A DNA stretch of 23,060 bases from a virus: positions 1-23,060 of IMG/VR virus record IMGVR_UViG_3300017726_000092; one strand, 5' to 3'. Under the pieces are notes generated by a model. The model was not told the DNA's origin, did no database searches, and worked only from the letters and a program-made list of their open reading frames with translations. Each line of letters begins with the position of its first letter. Positions within the stretch are counted from its first letter, which is position 1. Both the position numbers and the translations under genes were made by a program. Of the stretch, positions 6,864-17,331 are shown in pieces.

Positions 6864-9046
6864 TATCTTAAATTTTTAAATCCAGTTCTCTTCATCCTTT
6901 GTCCATTTATTGTGTTTTTACGCCCAATATTACGGAACGGACTATACTTTAATTTATGGAATTTTTTTGAATTATCCAATGAATTCTCATTCTTCTCTAG
7001 CCTTTTTGCATACCCACGGTTAGATTGTTGAATCTTTGCAAAAGCAACTAAAGCAGAAAAAGCAACTAAACGGTCAACATTTAAACCTGGATAATATGCT
7101 AACATTTCTTTAATTAACATTGGATCAGGTATTCTAGTAGCACCCTTTGTAGTAGATATAATATTACCTTCTATGTCTAACTCTTCATCTATATCTTCTC
7201 TAAGAAACTCAATAGCATAAGAAATTAAATGATTCTTAAATAGTGTACCTGTATTTTTCCAACCATATTCTTGGAATACAGATCTATTAGAACCCAAATC
7301 TTTCAGAAATAATATCTGCTGCTTTGGTACAAGATACTTTTGCTTGCGCTTACTAATCATATATTGAATAAATAATGAGATATTATTCTCCACTATTGTC
7401 CATGCATTATACCATTCTATAATTAGTTCTAATTGCTCATGCGTTTTATTAATATCATCATATCTACCGCACCATGCAGCAACTATCTTATCTTTTTCTA
7501 TAAAGTGTTCTAGTCCATTTTCTGTTTCTCTACTTACTTCTACAGGATTCTTATATACAAAAATGCTACACAATGAATCTGATGTAGTTGTCTTACCTTC
7601 TGACACAGGGTCAATAGAAGCATAATATGTACCAAACTCTGGATTCTTTGTAGGACGCTCCCATACAACTAAAGCACCTGTTTTATCAACTTGCTTTTTA
7701 TCTACAGGAAATTTAGATATTGGTAATTTATCTGTACGATTTGCAATAATACCTTTTTCATCTCTTTGTAGTTTAAGATGTTCATAAGAGTATTCTTTCT
7801 CTTCTATTGCTTTTAATTGTTTAGATAATACACCTTGAGGAAATATAGATTCTTTTCTGTAAGCAAATGCTTCAGCAATGTTAGTAGGCTTCTGAGATAT
7901 TCTTAATTGATATTGTTCTGGATTAAGAGATACTTTCCAATCTGCTCTTTCTTTTCTAATAGCTTCTAATGCTTGTTCAACAAGAGAATTACCATAATCA
8001 TCAATATAAGGAGGCATAGACCATTGCTCAGGAATAAATAATCCTGCTATGCCAATAGTACCATCCTTATCCATTAGATTAGTTTCTATAGCATATACAT
8101 CATTTGCATCTGCGTTTAAGATCATCTCCTTTAAAGGTTCACATTGATCCAAGTCCCCCACTGATCCTGCTGCAATAAACATCCCCGTAGTTACCATACC
8201 AGATACCATTGCAGGTCTAATATATTCATATGTATCAGACATCTTAGGTGCAATCCCTGCTTCCTCATGAAAGAAGTATGTACACGGACCACCAACTCCA
8301 GTTGTTGCACTCTTCTCAAAAGATGCACCCTGTATCTTAGATTTAAGTCCTCTATATGTCTTACGGTTATTTATTTTAACCTCAATCTTCTGCTCCCATA
8401 AAAGAACCTTCTCAGGATTACATGGTCTATACCATGCAGTATGCTCGTTTAAAAAAGCTTTATACTCATCAAGAAACTTCCATGAACCTTTGTCATTGAT
8501 ATAATCTTTTAAAGAAGCTCCTATCTTACATATACTACCCTCCTCAAACCAATAGGTATTAAGAAGCTTTGCCATATGAAAGTATGAAGATGCAATCTGA
8601 CGTTTCTTTAATATTGCTGAATGTTTGTAATGTAACTCTGCAAGTAATTCATATAGTGCCATATGGTATTGAGCATCTCTTACTTTGGCAAAACCAAACT
8701 TCTTTTCTTCCTTGTTAAAAATAGGCAAGAAGTTTAACCACATGTAATAATCTCTAGTAAGATACCATGTGATTCCTTGGTTGTGATATATTACACCATC
8801 ACGACATTTATTCTTTTCAGTTTCCCAATAAGTTACAAAGTCTTTAGATCTAAAAGGTTTATCACAATAAAATCCATGCTCTTCAAAAAACCTAGCCTCT
8901 TTATTAAAGATGTAAGCAGTTTCATCAAAAGCATACTCCCCAGGCTCTTTGAACAAGGGGAGTAGAAAGTTTATAAAATCTTCACGAGTTTTAAACTCTG
9001 TGGTACGCCAGGTACCATTGTCATATGTGTGTATTGACTTATACAT
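6863..9046 (-). CDS. terL: Terminase large subunit, ATPase and nuclease (727 aa)
   Basis: Motor that cuts and pumps concatemeric DNA into the procapsid through the portal. ATPase domain (about 120-330): a variant Walker A, KKRQIASS at 147-154, with Arg-Gln before the Ser pair as is common in terminases; Walker B with catalytic Glu, TYFFHEE at 256-262; a coupling motif AAGSVGD at about 292-298. RNase H-like nuclease domain (about 470-680): acidic residues in SIDP (D479), VENN (E553) and NVDRLVAF (D658). The size and variant Walker A fit crAss-like terminases. It begins with ATG inside the end of the GroES-like gene (8-base overlap) and its stop overlaps the portal start. No obvious defects: all expected catalytic residues are present. 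Confidence 0.93.
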   Translation of the reverse strand: MYKSIHTYDNGTWRTTEFKTREDFINFLLPLFKEPGEYAFDETAYIFNKEARFFEEHGFYCDKPFRSKDFVTYWETEKNKCRDGVIYHNQGITWYLTRDYYMWLNFLPIFNKEEKKFGFAKVRDAQYHMALYELLAELHYKHSAILKKRQIASSYFHMAKLLNTYWFEEGSICKIGASLKDYINDKGSWKFLDEYKAFLNEHTAWYRPCNPEKVLLWEQKIEVKINNRKTYRGLKSKIQGASFEKSATTGVGGPCTYFFHEEAGIAPKMSDTYEYIRPAMVSGMVTTGMFIAAGSVGDLDQCEPLKEMILNADANDVYAIETNLMDKDGTIGIAGLFIPEQWSMPPYIDDYGNSLVEQALEAIRKERADWKVSLNPEQYQLRISQKPTNIAEAFAYRKESIFPQGVLSKQLKAIEEKEYSYEHLKLQRDEKGIIANRTDKLPISKFPVDKKQVDKTGALVVWERPTKNPEFGTYYASIDPVSEGKTTTSDSLCSIFVYKNPVEVSRETENGLEHFIEKDKIVAAWCGRYDDINKTHEQLELIIEWYNAWTIVENNISLFIQYMISKRKQKYLVPKQQILFLKDLGSNRSVFQEYGWKNTGTLFKNHLISYAIEFLREDIDEELDIEGNIISTTKGATRIPDPMLIKEMLAYYPGLNVDRLVAFSALVAFAKIQQSNRGYAKRLEKNENSLDNSKKFHKLKYSPFRNIGRKNTINGQRMKRTGFKNLR

Positions 9047-9317
9047 TTATGATTGCAAACACATCTTCAGCATTTAGAAGAAAGTGTTCTTCACCATCAT
9101 GCATCATAACTGTTGGTTTAGCATAGTCAGCATATTGAATAACCTGTCCTGGTTCAATAAGCTCTACAGTATTACCAACAGCTACTACAATAGCTTTACA
9201 CTCTTTCTTTCCCGTTCCCTCTGGAATTAGTATTGATGTTCCTGCAAAGTACTTTTCTGCTTCTTTCTTCTTTACTAGGATCTTTCTTCCTACCGGTGTA
9301 ATTTTTTGATTTTTCAT
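9039..9317 (-). CDS. GroES-like co-chaperonin (92 aa)
   Basis: Cpn10 family protein that should cap a host GroEL and help fold virion proteins, as T4 gp31 does for its capsid protein. Matches to the family: KITPVGRKILVKKKEAE at about 5-21, a mobile-loop region GTSILIP at 26-32 with the hydrophobic tripeptide I-L-I that would bind GroEL, IVVAVGN at 43-49, an acidic-glycine turn EPGQVI and the closing strand EDVFAIINV. The start at 9317 is preferred because family similarity begins there and the leader is A-rich; a GTG at 9362 and an ATG at 9338 in the same frame would only add a non-conserved extension. It overlaps the terminase start by 8 bases, so it is made with the packaging and head proteins. 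Confidence 0.82.
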   Translation of the reverse strand: MKNQKITPVGRKILVKKKEAEKYFAGTSILIPEGTGKKECKAIVVAVGNTVELIEPGQVIQYADYAKPTVMMHDGEEHFLLNAEDVFAIINV

Positions 9318-9371
9318 TTTTAATTGATTTAAAGTCATCCCAATATGGGAAAATATATTCACTATTCATAA

Positions 9372-10096: not shown

Positions 10097-10905
10097 TTGT
10101 TATCTTTTAACCACATTATTAATGTTCTTACCTCATCTTTAAGATATGGTAAATCATATATTTTAATATCTTCCACAACAGGTTCTCCATTTATATGTTC
10201 ATTAATTGGATACCCATTTGTATCAGTACCCAATTGTTTAAACTTTACATGTTGAATAGTTAACTTTCCTATCTTTAGTTTAGGGTTGTGCTTTTTAATA
10301 ATATACGCATAAATACTGAGTTGTAAATTATAATGATTTAAATTACAATCATCAAGGTGTATAACAGGAGCAAACATTTTAGATGTTATACCCTCCCAGT
10401 TTGTAAACCCTTTCTCACGTATTTCTTTATTAGTCTTATAATCATTGATATTTATGTGTCCATTTACTATTTCAACTAAATCTGCTTGTCCGCATAAACC
10501 TACAGACTTTAAATACACCATATGTTCAGGATATACACCTTCATCAAGTTTTTGATTTGATGCTATTTTAATCCCATCATTATCAATAATTGGTTTAATA
10601 ATAGGTACTTCAACACCCTCACGTTGAATTGTTTTAAGACCAAGTATATCTGACTCACGTTGATTATGATACCAGTTGCCAAGTTTAATAGCTCTTTGTG
10701 TTTCATTATCCCATGCTTCCATTATTTCTTCTGGAGTCATACCATACCACTTAGATCTTTTATTCTTAGAAGACTTCTTTGCTTGACCTTCTCTATCAAA
10801 CTTAGGTTTAAAGTTTCCTATAAATGACGTAACACTAGTCCACTTGATATCTTCATTACCAATGCTTTCATACAAGTGTCCATCTTCTTTAAATGTTATT
10901 GCCAT
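10093..10905 (-). CDS. PD-(D/E)XK nuclease, RecB/Cas4-like exonuclease fold (270 aa)
   Basis: Probable metal-dependent DNA exonuclease acting in phage recombination, DNA end processing or host DNA breakdown. Motifs in order: a His in a helix (GNWYHNQ, H80), an acidic residue before the core strand (D142 in GLCGQADLVEI), the catalytic NDYKT (D155, K157) and the QxxxY helix motif LQLSIYAYI (Q195, Y199). This set and order is typical of RecB-type nucleases. Crassvirales genomes commonly carry a PD-(D/E)XK nuclease. No Cas4-type cysteine cluster is seen, so it lacks the iron-sulphur site. The stop overlaps the next gene by ATGA and its start shares one base with the SET gene stop (TAATG). Confidence 0.85.
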   Translation of the reverse strand: MAITFKEDGHLYESIGNEDIKWTSVTSFIGNFKPKFDREGQAKKSSKNKRSKWYGMTPEEIMEAWDNETQRAIKLGNWYHNQRESDILGLKTIQREGVEVPIIKPIIDNDGIKIASNQKLDEGVYPEHMVYLKSVGLCGQADLVEIVNGHININDYKTNKEIREKGFTNWEGITSKMFAPVIHLDDCNLNHYNLQLSIYAYIIKKHNPKLKIGKLTIQHVKFKQLGTDTNGYPINEHINGEPVVEDIKIYDLPYLKDEVRTLIMWLKDNK

Positions 10906-11279
10906 TATTTCTTTTTTAAATGTGGTTTAGCCTCCCAATATTTATCTCCACCATAAAATACAGTTATTTCATCTCCAGCTTCAATATCTTTAATTGCCCT
11001 AAACCTCATAGTTTCTCTACCAAAGTCTGGTTCATAGATTGCATTACATGTATCAGAATGATTATAGAAACAACCATAACCTGCTACAATGCAAGCTTTA
11101 TTATTTATTTTCCAACTAAAACTATAATCTGCTAACTTGTCTTGCTCAGATACAAATATTACAGGACACTCTTCAATAAGTTCTTTTTTTGCAATTGGTT
11201 CTTTTGCAAATACTCCAAACCTATGTATAGGACTGCTTCTAACTATTATTTTATTCGTTGATGTTATTATCATTTTCAA
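10905..11279 (-). CDS. SET-domain protein, putative protein lysine methyltransferase (124 aa)
   Basis: Nearly the whole protein is a minimal SET domain. Signatures: HRFGVFAKEPIAKKELIEE (about 19-37, the N-terminal SET motif), YGCFYNHSDTCNA (about 68-80, equivalent to the NHSxxPN motif that binds S-adenosylmethionine) and AGDEITVFYG (101-110, equivalent to GEELTxDY with the catalytic Tyr at 109). Pre-SET and post-SET cysteines are absent. SET proteins transfer methyl groups from S-adenosylmethionine to lysines; the target here is unknown, candidates being virion proteins, the neighbouring IHF-like protein or host proteins. A second in-frame ATG (11273) is possible. The start overlaps the zinc-ribbon gene by 29 bases and the end overlaps the nuclease start by one. 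Confidence 0.82.
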   Translation of the reverse strand: MKMIITSTNKIIVRSSPIHRFGVFAKEPIAKKELIEECPVIFVSEQDKLADYSFSWKINNKACIVAGYGCFYNHSDTCNAIYEPDFGRETMRFRAIKDIEAGDEITVFYGGDKYWEAKPHLKKK

Positions 11280-15532: not shown

Positions 15533-15538
15533 CAAAGT

Positions 15539-15573
15539 GGGAGTGGCACCTTCGGGTGTCATTCTCCTTTTTT
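15539..15573 (+). terminator. Strong terminator with 12-pair stem and UUCG tetraloop
   Basis: The stem runs from 15539 to 15550 against 15555 to 15567, with a few G-T pairs, closed by TTCG and followed by TTTTTT. It ends the row of small genes and precedes a long non-coding region. Confidence 0.9.
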
Positions 15574-15889
15574 AGCTAATACTAAATCAACTAAGTGTGG
15601 CTAGTAATTGTTATTTTTTTCTACAACAATCCCACTAAATAAGAGTAGCTAGTGTGATGTATGGTCCAACACACCACCCAAACCCCCTTCACACACCACG
15701 CCAACCTCACAACACACCCACACACGACATTAATGTGGTATATAGTTGTGTGTGTGTAAATATGTAGGTGTGGTCAATAATCCCACATATTACCACTTTA
15801 AACCCTAATTTATTTTGTTTGGCACAGTAATATAATATATAGCTATCTTAATGTGCTTGAGTCCTATTAATCCTTTAAACCCTTTCTCT
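15574..15889. promoter_or_regulatory. Non-coding region with A/C-rich and G/T-rich tracts and hairpins
   Basis: About 300 bases without a convincing gene. Three parts: (1) 15594-15636 can fold as AGTGTGG / CCCACT with an inner ATTGTT (15607-15612) / AACAAT (15625-15630) stem and a T-rich loop; (2) 15664-15728 is nearly all A and C on the plus strand; (3) a G/T-rich tract begins at about 15735. The A/C arm CACACACGAC (15719-15728) pairs with GTTGTGTGTG (15745-15754) with one G-U pair. An AT-rich stretch (15815-15848) with TTTG at about 15819 precedes the next gene and is the likely promoter. Possible roles are an untranslated regulatory RNA, a promoter region or a replication origin. Confidence 0.5.
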
Positions 15890-16132
15890 ATGTCTGTTAT
15901 TAATATATACCGTAATGAAGCATTACAATATCATGATGCTTTGTCTATTGCTCTTGTGCATTTGGAGAGTGAGTACAACCAGTTTATTGATCGTGCACCT
16001 TATAATGCTACATACATGAGTGATGGTGATTTATCCCGTATAGAGACATTAGATAAGAGTAAGTATTTAATCCAGAAATTAATTAACCAGATAGAGAGTG
16101 GCTGCTCTATACCCTTAAAACAAGAATCATGA
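15890..16132 (+). CDS. Small unknown helical protein (80 aa), coupled to M23 peptidase
   Basis: No recognised family. Starts MSVINIYRNEALQYHDALSI and consists mainly of two or three helices (LQYHDALSIALVHLESEYNQ; LSRIETLDKSKYLIQKLINQI). Hydrophilic, no signal peptide. The start at 15890 is preferred over the in-frame ATG at 15851 because TTAAACC stands exactly eight bases before it, as in neighbouring genes; the longer form would add 13 Pro-rich residues. Its stop overlaps the peptidase start by ATGA, so the two products are probably made in fixed ratio. Confidence 0.65.
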   Translation: MSVINIYRNEALQYHDALSIALVHLESEYNQFIDRAPYNATYMSDGDLSRIETLDKSKYLIQKLINQIESGCSIPLKQES

Positions 16133-16830
16133 ATGATACATTAATGAAAACAACAAAGCTTGCTCTTTGTATCGGAATACCATTAGGTATAATTGCCTGT
16201 ATAGTTATTATAATATCTGTTGGTAAATCAGTTGCTGATTCGCCATATAATGATCCAGACTACGTGGCTGATATAGATGGTATTGAAGTAATAGATACAA
16301 TCCCTACGTTAGTTCATCTATACAAACCATGGGAAGATGATTGGTTTGCTTGGTATGATTCGGATACTGTTATAGATAGTATTGATATTTATACAGAGAA
16401 CTATCATCCACCCGTTTTAGTGGGTAGACATACCAGCGGCTATGGACCACGTTGGGGTATGTTTCATGAAGGAGTTGATATTGGTGGTAATAATCGTGAT
16501 ACAAGTTATGCTGTATTTGATGGTGTAGTAAGATTCTCAGATAATGCTGGGGGCTATGGTAACTTAATTGTTATAAGACATGACAATGGTCTTGAAACTT
16601 TCTATGCACATCATTGGCATAACATAGTAGAGCGTGGTGATACTGTTAAAGCAGGTTCTCCATTAGGTGTTATTGGATCTACCGGTGTATCTACTGGACC
16701 TCATTTACATTTTGAGGTGCAGTTTTTAGGTAAAACAATGGATCCAGATGACTTCTTTAATGTTATGAATGATACATCTAACTTTACTATTAAATCACGT
16801 AATCGTTTTAGATATGATATTATCTATTAA
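16129..16830 (+). CDS. Membrane-anchored M23 (LytM-type) peptidase (233 aa)
   Basis: Zinc endopeptidase that cuts peptide cross-bridges in peptidoglycan. One N-terminal membrane segment at about 11-32, then a linker rich in Asp, then the M23 domain at about 95-207. Zinc and catalytic residues: HEGVDIG (H113, D117), YAHH (H161), GPHLHFEV (H192, H194). The complete set suggests an active enzyme. The anchor places it in the inner membrane facing the periplasm, or it is a signal peptide. Possible roles are lysis, or local wall opening when it is part of the virion. A second ATG at 16144 is possible, but the ATGA overlap favours 16129. Confidence 0.88.
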   Translation: MNDTLMKTTKLALCIGIPLGIIACIVIIISVGKSVADSPYNDPDYVADIDGIEVIDTIPTLVHLYKPWEDDWFAWYDSDTVIDSIDIYTENYHPPVLVGRHTSGYGPRWGMFHEGVDIGGNNRDTSYAVFDGVVRFSDNAGGYGNLIVIRHDNGLETFYAHHWHNIVERGDTVKAGSPLGVIGSTGVSTGPHLHFEVQFLGKTMDPDDFFNVMNDTSNFTIKSRNRFRYDIIY

Positions 16831-17169
16831 AATATAACTGTAGCATTGCATTAATTCTTTTCTTGGTCGTTCATGTTGTGCAATGTTACAGTTCCTTATA
16901 GACTGCAGTACCTTTTCATTTTGTGTTTTTGGTTCAGGGTACTGTAGTCTTTCTTACATCTACATAAGTTGTTACAACCAGCTTTAGTAGATATCTATAT
17001 GTTGTTTGTAATAGGTATTGGATAACCGGTACTGACAGATCATATGAAGATCTGGTGTACACCTGTGTTGTAGGTGGTGTATATAATATAAAACAAACGT
17101 AAAAACTCATATAGGGATACCTGAGTATGTATATAAACTGCTTATTTTTTTAACCCAAATTTATTTTCT
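16831..17169 (+). ncRNA. Candidate structured RNA with tandem long hairpins
   Basis: A 339-base gap without a gene. Hairpin 1: 16836-16850 with 16879-16893, 15 pairs including one G-U, loop of 28. Hairpin 2: 16900-16912 with 16938-16950, 13 pairs including one G-U, loop of 25. A weaker third: 16958-16963 with 16987-16992. Further on: CAGATC/GATCTG at 17036-17054, the palindrome GGTGTACACC at 17054-17063, and ACTCA/TGAGT at 17105-17126. GGTACTG occurs at 16938 and again at 17028, so CAGTACC at 16906 has two possible partners. Both G-U pairs are allowed only in RNA of the plus strand. It ends six bases or so before a lipoprotein gene. Could be a 5' leader switch, a stable decay-resistant RNA, or a small RNA. 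Confidence 0.55.
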
Positions 17170-17331
17170 ATGAAGTATTTAATTAAACACCGTATGTTCT
17201 TGTATTTAGTTGCTGTTGTTTTATTTACAGGTATGGTATCCACATCGTGTGGTAGATTTAATAGTTGTAAAGGTCATCCAGGTATAACACAGGATTTACA
17301 AAACAGTCAACAAGATAATTATGGCGGCTAG
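17170..17331 (+). CDS. Small lipoprotein (53 aa)
   Basis: ATG at 17170 after an A/T-rich leader, TAG at 17329-17331. A basic start (MKYLIKHR), a hydrophobic core (FLYLVAVVLFTGMV) and a lipobox-like end STSCG with Cys at 27 form a lipoprotein signal; the mature part is 27 residues (GRFNSCKGHPG, then a Gln/Asn-rich end). It overlaps the next gene by 11 bases. Probably a lipid-anchored periplasmic or outer membrane peptide; small phage lipoproteins of this type often serve in superinfection exclusion or as o-spanins, but no motif decides. It is preceded by the structured RNA candidate. Confidence 0.65.
   Translation: MKYLIKHRMFLYLVAVVLFTGMVSTSCGRFNSCKGHPGITQDLQNSQQDNYGG

Follow-up and report, generated by a model that had tools for sequence, protein, structure and literature searches.

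What is encoded in the long gap between two genes of a crAss-like phage, and is any part of it shared with other phages? The window, that is, the whole stretch of 23,060 bases analyzed here, is an IMG/VR record that carries crAss-like markers (terminase, portal, major head protein, HU/IHF-like, and DNA helicase genes), with a terminase of only 22–27% identity to those of cultured Crassvirales. Its genes lie on the minus strand to the left of approximately 13.9 kb and on the plus strand to the right, and the gap (16831–17169) is located within the plus block (table 1). The minus-strand block also includes the genes of a SET-domain protein (10905–11279) and of a Cpn10-like co-chaperonin (9039–9362). 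Another long gap of the window, at 15533–15850, has a fold z score of about −3 and shows a hairpin with GTGTGT/ACACAC arms ahead of the gene that follows.

According to the predicted folds, the gap at 16831–17169 encodes a structured intercistronic RNA, in which three hairpins in tandem are followed by a branched domain and, at the end, by an H-type pseudoknot. Its best-supported part, which was missed by the first-pass annotation, is the 3′ end, one copy of a pseudoknot family that is widespread among phages.

Table 1. Non-coding element of the window, its structural parts, and the flanking genes
Feature	Positions	Strand	Remark
M23 peptidase gene, upstream of the element	16129–16830	+	Another ORF at its place in sister contig L004
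Whole non-coding element	16831–17169	+	Spans the gap between the M23 peptidase stop and the small lipoprotein start
Hairpin A, 15–16 bp, loop of 26–28 nt	16836–16893	+	Identical in three phages
Hairpin B, 13–15 bp, loop of 21–25 nt	16898–16952	+	Loop more variable than any other spot
Hairpin C, two 6-bp helices	16958–16992	+	Fold prediction
Branched domain	16995–17114	+	Consensus fold of three sequences
H-type pseudoknot	17117–17143	+	Member of a widespread phage RNA family
53-aa lipoprotein gene	17170–17331	+	Start 26 nt past the pseudoknot

The two long stems described in the first-pass annotation are found where it had placed them, with 15 and 13 pairs. In detail, the stem of hairpin A (16836–16850/16879–16893) has 15 nt on each side, one G-U pair and a 28-nt loop, or 16 pairs if the next U-G is counted, and that of hairpin B (16900–16912/16938–16950) has 13 nt, one G-U pair and a 25-nt loop. 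The further stems that it had announced up to the lipoprotein gene are also present, but the final one turned out to be a pseudoknot, with P1 at 17117–17120/17129–17132, P2 at 17123–17127/17139–17143, and an A-rich junction (NNAAAC) at 17133–17138. Between the hairpins and the pseudoknot, the branched domain is predicted to be closed by stem 16995–17001/17108–17114, followed by an inner stem (17003–17009/17093–17099) and three hairpins (17014–17033, 17036–17054, and 17055–17084).

The folding energy of the whole element, −93.5 kcal/mol, is lower than the mean of its shuffled versions (−70.7; z = −5.2), and none of 100 shuffles was as good. The plus strand folds better than the minus strand, both over the element (z of −4.3 vs. 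−3.6, 60 shuffles) and in 160-nt windows (−3.9 vs. −1.7). Several coding stretches of the same window reach equally low fold scores; stability alone therefore proves little and was dropped as evidence. No family of Rfam 15 matched the element at the gathering cut-off, the only matches being weak ones by E-value (E up to 10). Sigma-70 and Bacteroidetes promoter patterns gave nothing above chance in the element, and no intergenic ORF in the gap is common to the relatives, that is, no conserved protein reading frame crosses it.

Two sister contigs (L004 and L005) keep the gap at 97% identity. Across the element, the window and L004 differ by seven substitutions and three gap columns, whereas 124 of 319 four-fold sites (39%) in eleven shared genes are changed between the window and the sister phages; this comparison comprises three sequences only, two of which are near-identical. 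The changes in the element are mainly located in the loop of hairpin B, and near-total conservation extends even to unpaired bases. A full compensatory series is found at the pair 17000/17109, where the U-A of the window corresponds to U-G in L004 and to C-G in L005; this is the one compensatory pair across the three sequences. The proposal of an undescribed structured RNA is thus upheld by the fold score, the lack of an Rfam family, the contrast of identity in the gap with four-fold change in the genes, and this pair. An extra 18-bp hairpin stands before the element in L004.

Two other proposals fared less well. The near-identical 11-base strings of the two loops are present in the window but are not kept in the relatives, where CATTTT--GTG of loop 2 is replaced by TTATTTAAGTG. 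Since loop 2 is the variable part, the similarity is probably due to chance, and the derivation of one hairpin from the other is not supported. Similarly, GGTACTG does occur twice, at 16938 and 17028, but the two-partner switch suggested for it has no covariation support. The second copy has a local partner of its own in the consensus fold, and an alternative pairing of 7 bp could form only by displacing a hairpin of 13–15 bp, which makes the switch energetically lopsided.

The M23 peptidase gene, which precedes the element in the window, is found at 8800–9486 in L004, an indication that this gene has moved. As a different ORF stands upstream of the element in L004, the element is independent of the peptidase gene. 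L389, which carries a more distantly related lipoprotein gene, lacks the element and has an ordinary hairpin in front of that gene. These placements, together with the conservation of unpaired bases, would fit a small phage RNA in its own right, one that acts on host or phage RNA in trans and whose stable 3′ end is formed by the pseudoknot. We consider this rather unlikely, as no promoter was recognized by the above patterns and only three sequences are at hand; it is compatible with the protective role of the pseudoknot proposed below.

Less probable is that the 97% identity reflects a recent phage-to-phage transfer and has little bearing on function. The genomes are mosaic and some neighboring genes show few four-fold changes (2/24, 2/15, and 1/15), so a recent transfer could mimic conservation. 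However, the conserved block tracks the non-coding stretch and fades some nine codons past the lipoprotein start; the first bases of that gene are identical in the relatives and its remainder has diverged. Moreover, the existing changes avoid the stems or preserve the pair. A recent transfer is therefore regarded as unlikely.

Further copies of the long element were not recovered. BLASTN of the region against annotated phages gave no match, exact scans for parts of the element retrieved only the two known sister contigs from IMG/VR and nothing from bacterial genomes, and searches through the downstream gene added no copy. On the reverse strand of another contig (L092, 15518–16521), roughly twelve hairpins stand in tandem within a gene-free stretch of 1 kb (z = −8.7); a tRNA-Arg follows directly, and the conserved genes located downstream are those also present in the window. 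This stretch resembles another hairpin array but was rejected as a relative of the element, as it has no sequence in common with the window.

The 3′ end of the element behaves differently in these searches. A weak BLAST match at 17117–17146 revealed short copies that precede genes in three other contigs (L059, L054, and L038), and a degenerate pattern built from these copies matched at least 120 IMG/VR stretches, against approximately one chance match expected from base counts. The copies share a P1 of 3–4 bp, a CU loop, a P2 of 5 bp formed with downstream sequence, and an NNAAAC strand along P1. The two helices are interleaved, the first loop pairs downstream, and both helices covary, as expected of an H-type pseudoknot.

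The covariation is evident at positions that the pattern left free. The P1 pair −2/11, unconstrained in the pattern, is complementary in all 130 distinct copies (58 expected) through C-G, G-C, A-U, U-A, and a few U-G combinations, and the end pair of P2 (3/23) is formed in 124 of the 130 (102 expected). A scan with no stem letters fixed, based on the AAAC strand and pairing only, recovered 182 distinct sequences vs. 13 in shuffles, and 162 vs. 1 when CT was also required in the loop. Other stem letters appeared in this way, for instance GGACA/TGTCC, GGGTA/TACCC, GGCCA/TGGCC, and ATTC/GAAT. In a set of 46 diverse copies, eight of the nine pairs are changed on both sides, 97.8% of the cells are paired (slid controls ≤41%), and the covariation score is 0.66, compared with 0.23 for shuffled sequences and ≤0.15 for slid partners; this set was selected by structure, and the selection-free pairs are only −2/11 and 3/23 of the 130 copies. 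The reversed pattern gave no match in 21 whole records, 20 of which contain the pattern itself. A match in the E. coli phage GJ1 was not counted, its P1 pairing being incomplete. The existence of a widespread phage pseudoknot RNA family is nearly certain.

Rfam 15 recognized only tRNAs at the gathering cut-off in the loci with pseudoknot copies, apart from weak E-value hits. A limited search of open-licence papers found neither a description of the family nor a paper with its consensus, and for this scope the term undescribed is provisional. H-type pseudoknots as such are already known; provisionally, this family and its pattern of use appear to be new.

Named carriers belong to unrelated phage groups. 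Among the Cobavirinae, they are Roseobacter phage SIO1, Lentibacter phages ICBM1-3, and Celeribacter phage P12053L, in which the copies lie between ribonucleotide reductase and glutaredoxin genes where both are annotated. The other named carriers are the gut crAss-like phages cr7_1 and cr124_1, the cyanomyovirus S-RIM4, and Paracoccus phage ParKuw1. There are one to seven copies per genome (seven in one contig). The copies are predominantly intergenic, with 150 out of 160 outside long ORFs, and follow the strand of their neighbors both upstream (138/148) and downstream (127/142). The distance from the preceding stop codon varies from 1 to 126 nt, mostly 8–12 nt (the peak) or 50–80 nt. About half of the copies end 11–30 nt before a start codon, often 17–30, and others are located just before tRNAs or at a distance of 60–190 nt to the nearest start codon.

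Hsp20 (10 of 56), DUF932 (8), and ribonucleotide reductase (5) are among the upstream genes, whereas the downstream genes are very diverse. In 12 copies, which make up most of those adjacent to phage tRNAs, a same-strand tRNA starts 3–11 nt downstream of the pseudoknot, and no tRNA of the opposite strand was found near the copies. These are tRNA-Asp in ten phages, probably representing one orthologous site, tRNA-Ser in L299, and tRNA-Val in cr124_1. Folding is stronger over the 55 nt preceding the pseudoknot than over the 55 nt following it (mean z of −1.35 vs. −0.29), a trend that the window follows with its hairpins standing before the pseudoknot.

Other recurrent sequences were also observed. 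A conserved leader, CAGAGTAAACTGTTTAAATCATT, followed by a small GTGGGGGTAATGGTCCTCAC hairpin, precedes a gene starting with MAYF in five contigs (L125:15847, L078:16210, L110:18268, L101:13239, and L117:15302), and looks like another conserved phage leader RNA. A string close to CTCTCTCTATAGGATAATAGA is repeated in intergenic stretches of crAss-like phages (L081:2264, L099:1459, L087:1689, L092, and L018).

The motif was also found five times in a bacterial chromosome, that of an Ignavibacteria member (CP054675.1). All five occurrences fall within a single CRISPR array, which has 140 spacers, and share the same orientation. The motif is complete in three of the spacers, and the other two start inside P1. 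Type III-A cas genes (Csm1 to Csm5 and Cas1) adjoin the array on the minus strand, and the reverse complement of the array repeat ends in ATTGAGAC. As this end resembles a crRNA handle, the crRNAs would be antisense to the pseudoknot RNA, and the motif would in turn be transcribed in the proposed sense. A reverse transcriptase, a possible source of RNA-derived spacers, was not found in the Ignavibacteria genome. In this array (L355), several groups of overlapping or identical spacers of the same orientation are present in addition to the spacers with the motif (e.g., s29, s70, s102, s132, and s135), as if a few hot spots had been sampled repeatedly.

As to function, our tentative preference, drawn from sequence and placement, is that the pseudoknot is a putative guard of processed mRNA ends that blocks exonucleases. 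The element and its pseudoknot would be read together with the neighboring genes of the plus strand as part of an mRNA. An endonuclease would then cut nearby and expose an RNA end; where a tRNA follows within 3–11 nt, RNase P would be the enzyme and would leave an upstream message ending with the pseudoknot. The hairpin and the pseudoknot would stop 3′-to-5′ exonucleases and the upstream message would survive. In the window, the pseudoknot would cap the long hairpin RNA, 26 nt before the start codon of the lipoprotein gene. The tRNA spacing, the stronger upstream folding, and the Hsp20 and ribonucleotide reductase genes upstream are indirect indications of such a role. The occurrence of the motif in unrelated phages suggests contact with the host machinery rather than with a phage protein. 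On the contrary, the copies located 11–30 nt before start codons fit a role in the 5′ UTR equally well.

Accordingly placed copies lead to the main rival, namely translational or riboswitch-like control of the downstream gene from its 5′ UTR, either by autoregulation, as for T4 gene 32, or by binding of a ligand, as for preQ1-I. Both roles are known for small H-type pseudoknots, and glutaredoxin, primase-helicase, nucleases, and kinases are among the downstream genes. Nevertheless, we find this reading rather unlikely, given the diversity of the downstream genes, the copies before tRNAs or far from any start codon, and the lack of a match to Rfam riboswitch models. The preQ1-I riboswitch itself is not indicated, since cmscan gave no match to its model and the neighbors (nucleases, glutaredoxin, Hsp20, ribonucleotide reductase, and others) are not queuosine genes. 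Autoregulation of the T4 gene 32 type finds no support, as the copies adjoin many different genes and not that of an ssDNA-binding protein. A pseudoknot for stop-codon readthrough or frameshifting is not indicated either, the spacing from the stop codon not being fixed.

An action on RNA polymerase through pausing, antitermination, or factor-dependent termination, like that of the put RNA of HK022, appears improbable. The motif acts in cis, on the gene strand, between genes and in unrelated phage groups, and thus probably via host machinery, which would agree with it. However, copies are found between the genes of operons and not at operon starts, the family consensus has no following U tract, and no terminator was called in 16831–17169; for the latter two reasons, an intrinsic terminator was rejected as well. 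A DNA element (phage promoter, replication or packaging signal) is very improbable, for although the motif is short, conserved, repeated, and upstream of genes, its stem letters vary freely as long as pairing holds, its placement is same-strand, and the five type III-A spacers are all in one orientation.

H-type pseudoknots of the kind found in preQ1-I riboswitches and in the leader of T4 gene 32 resemble the phage family in their two short interleaved helices, A-rich third strand, size of approximately 27–35 nt, and position in cis in the mRNA. The family differs in its CU loop, its AAAC strand, its several copies per genome, and its lack of an Rfam match, and it is not bound to one gene or pathway. 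Known viral xrRNAs are larger and act on 5′-to-3′ enzymes in RNA viruses. A likeness of the phage pseudoknot to them, and to structures stabilizing mRNA 3′ ends, may lie in a compact pseudoknot placed at, or close to, the ends of processed RNAs; its putative block would be 3′-to-5′. The manA and wcaG RNAs of cyanophages are structured RNAs of marine phages near Hsp20-type and nucleotide genes, and one of them has a possible pseudoknot (PMC2864571), but their Rfam models matched none of the loci searched. GOLLD and ROOL are large ornate non-coding RNAs of bacteria and phages (PMC12286853); in comparison, the present element, with no match to their models, is simpler and about 340 nt long.

Taken together, and with more caution than for the guarding role itself, phages of several unrelated groups and hosts may share a 27-nt pseudoknot that guards processed transcripts at their ends against host exonucleases and to which hosts reply with type III spacers, and which in this phage caps a hairpin RNA of 300 nt. 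The recurrence of so small a covarying fold in crAss-like phages, marine podoviruses, a cyanomyovirus, and other phages suggests a need that phages have in common and for which Rfam has no name. The five spacers against the pseudoknot suggest that some hosts treat the motif as a shared phage signature. If the pseudoknot does protect mRNA ends, this would account for the survival of selected phage messages within operons, and the pseudoknot would be a short, testable, and portable RNA part.
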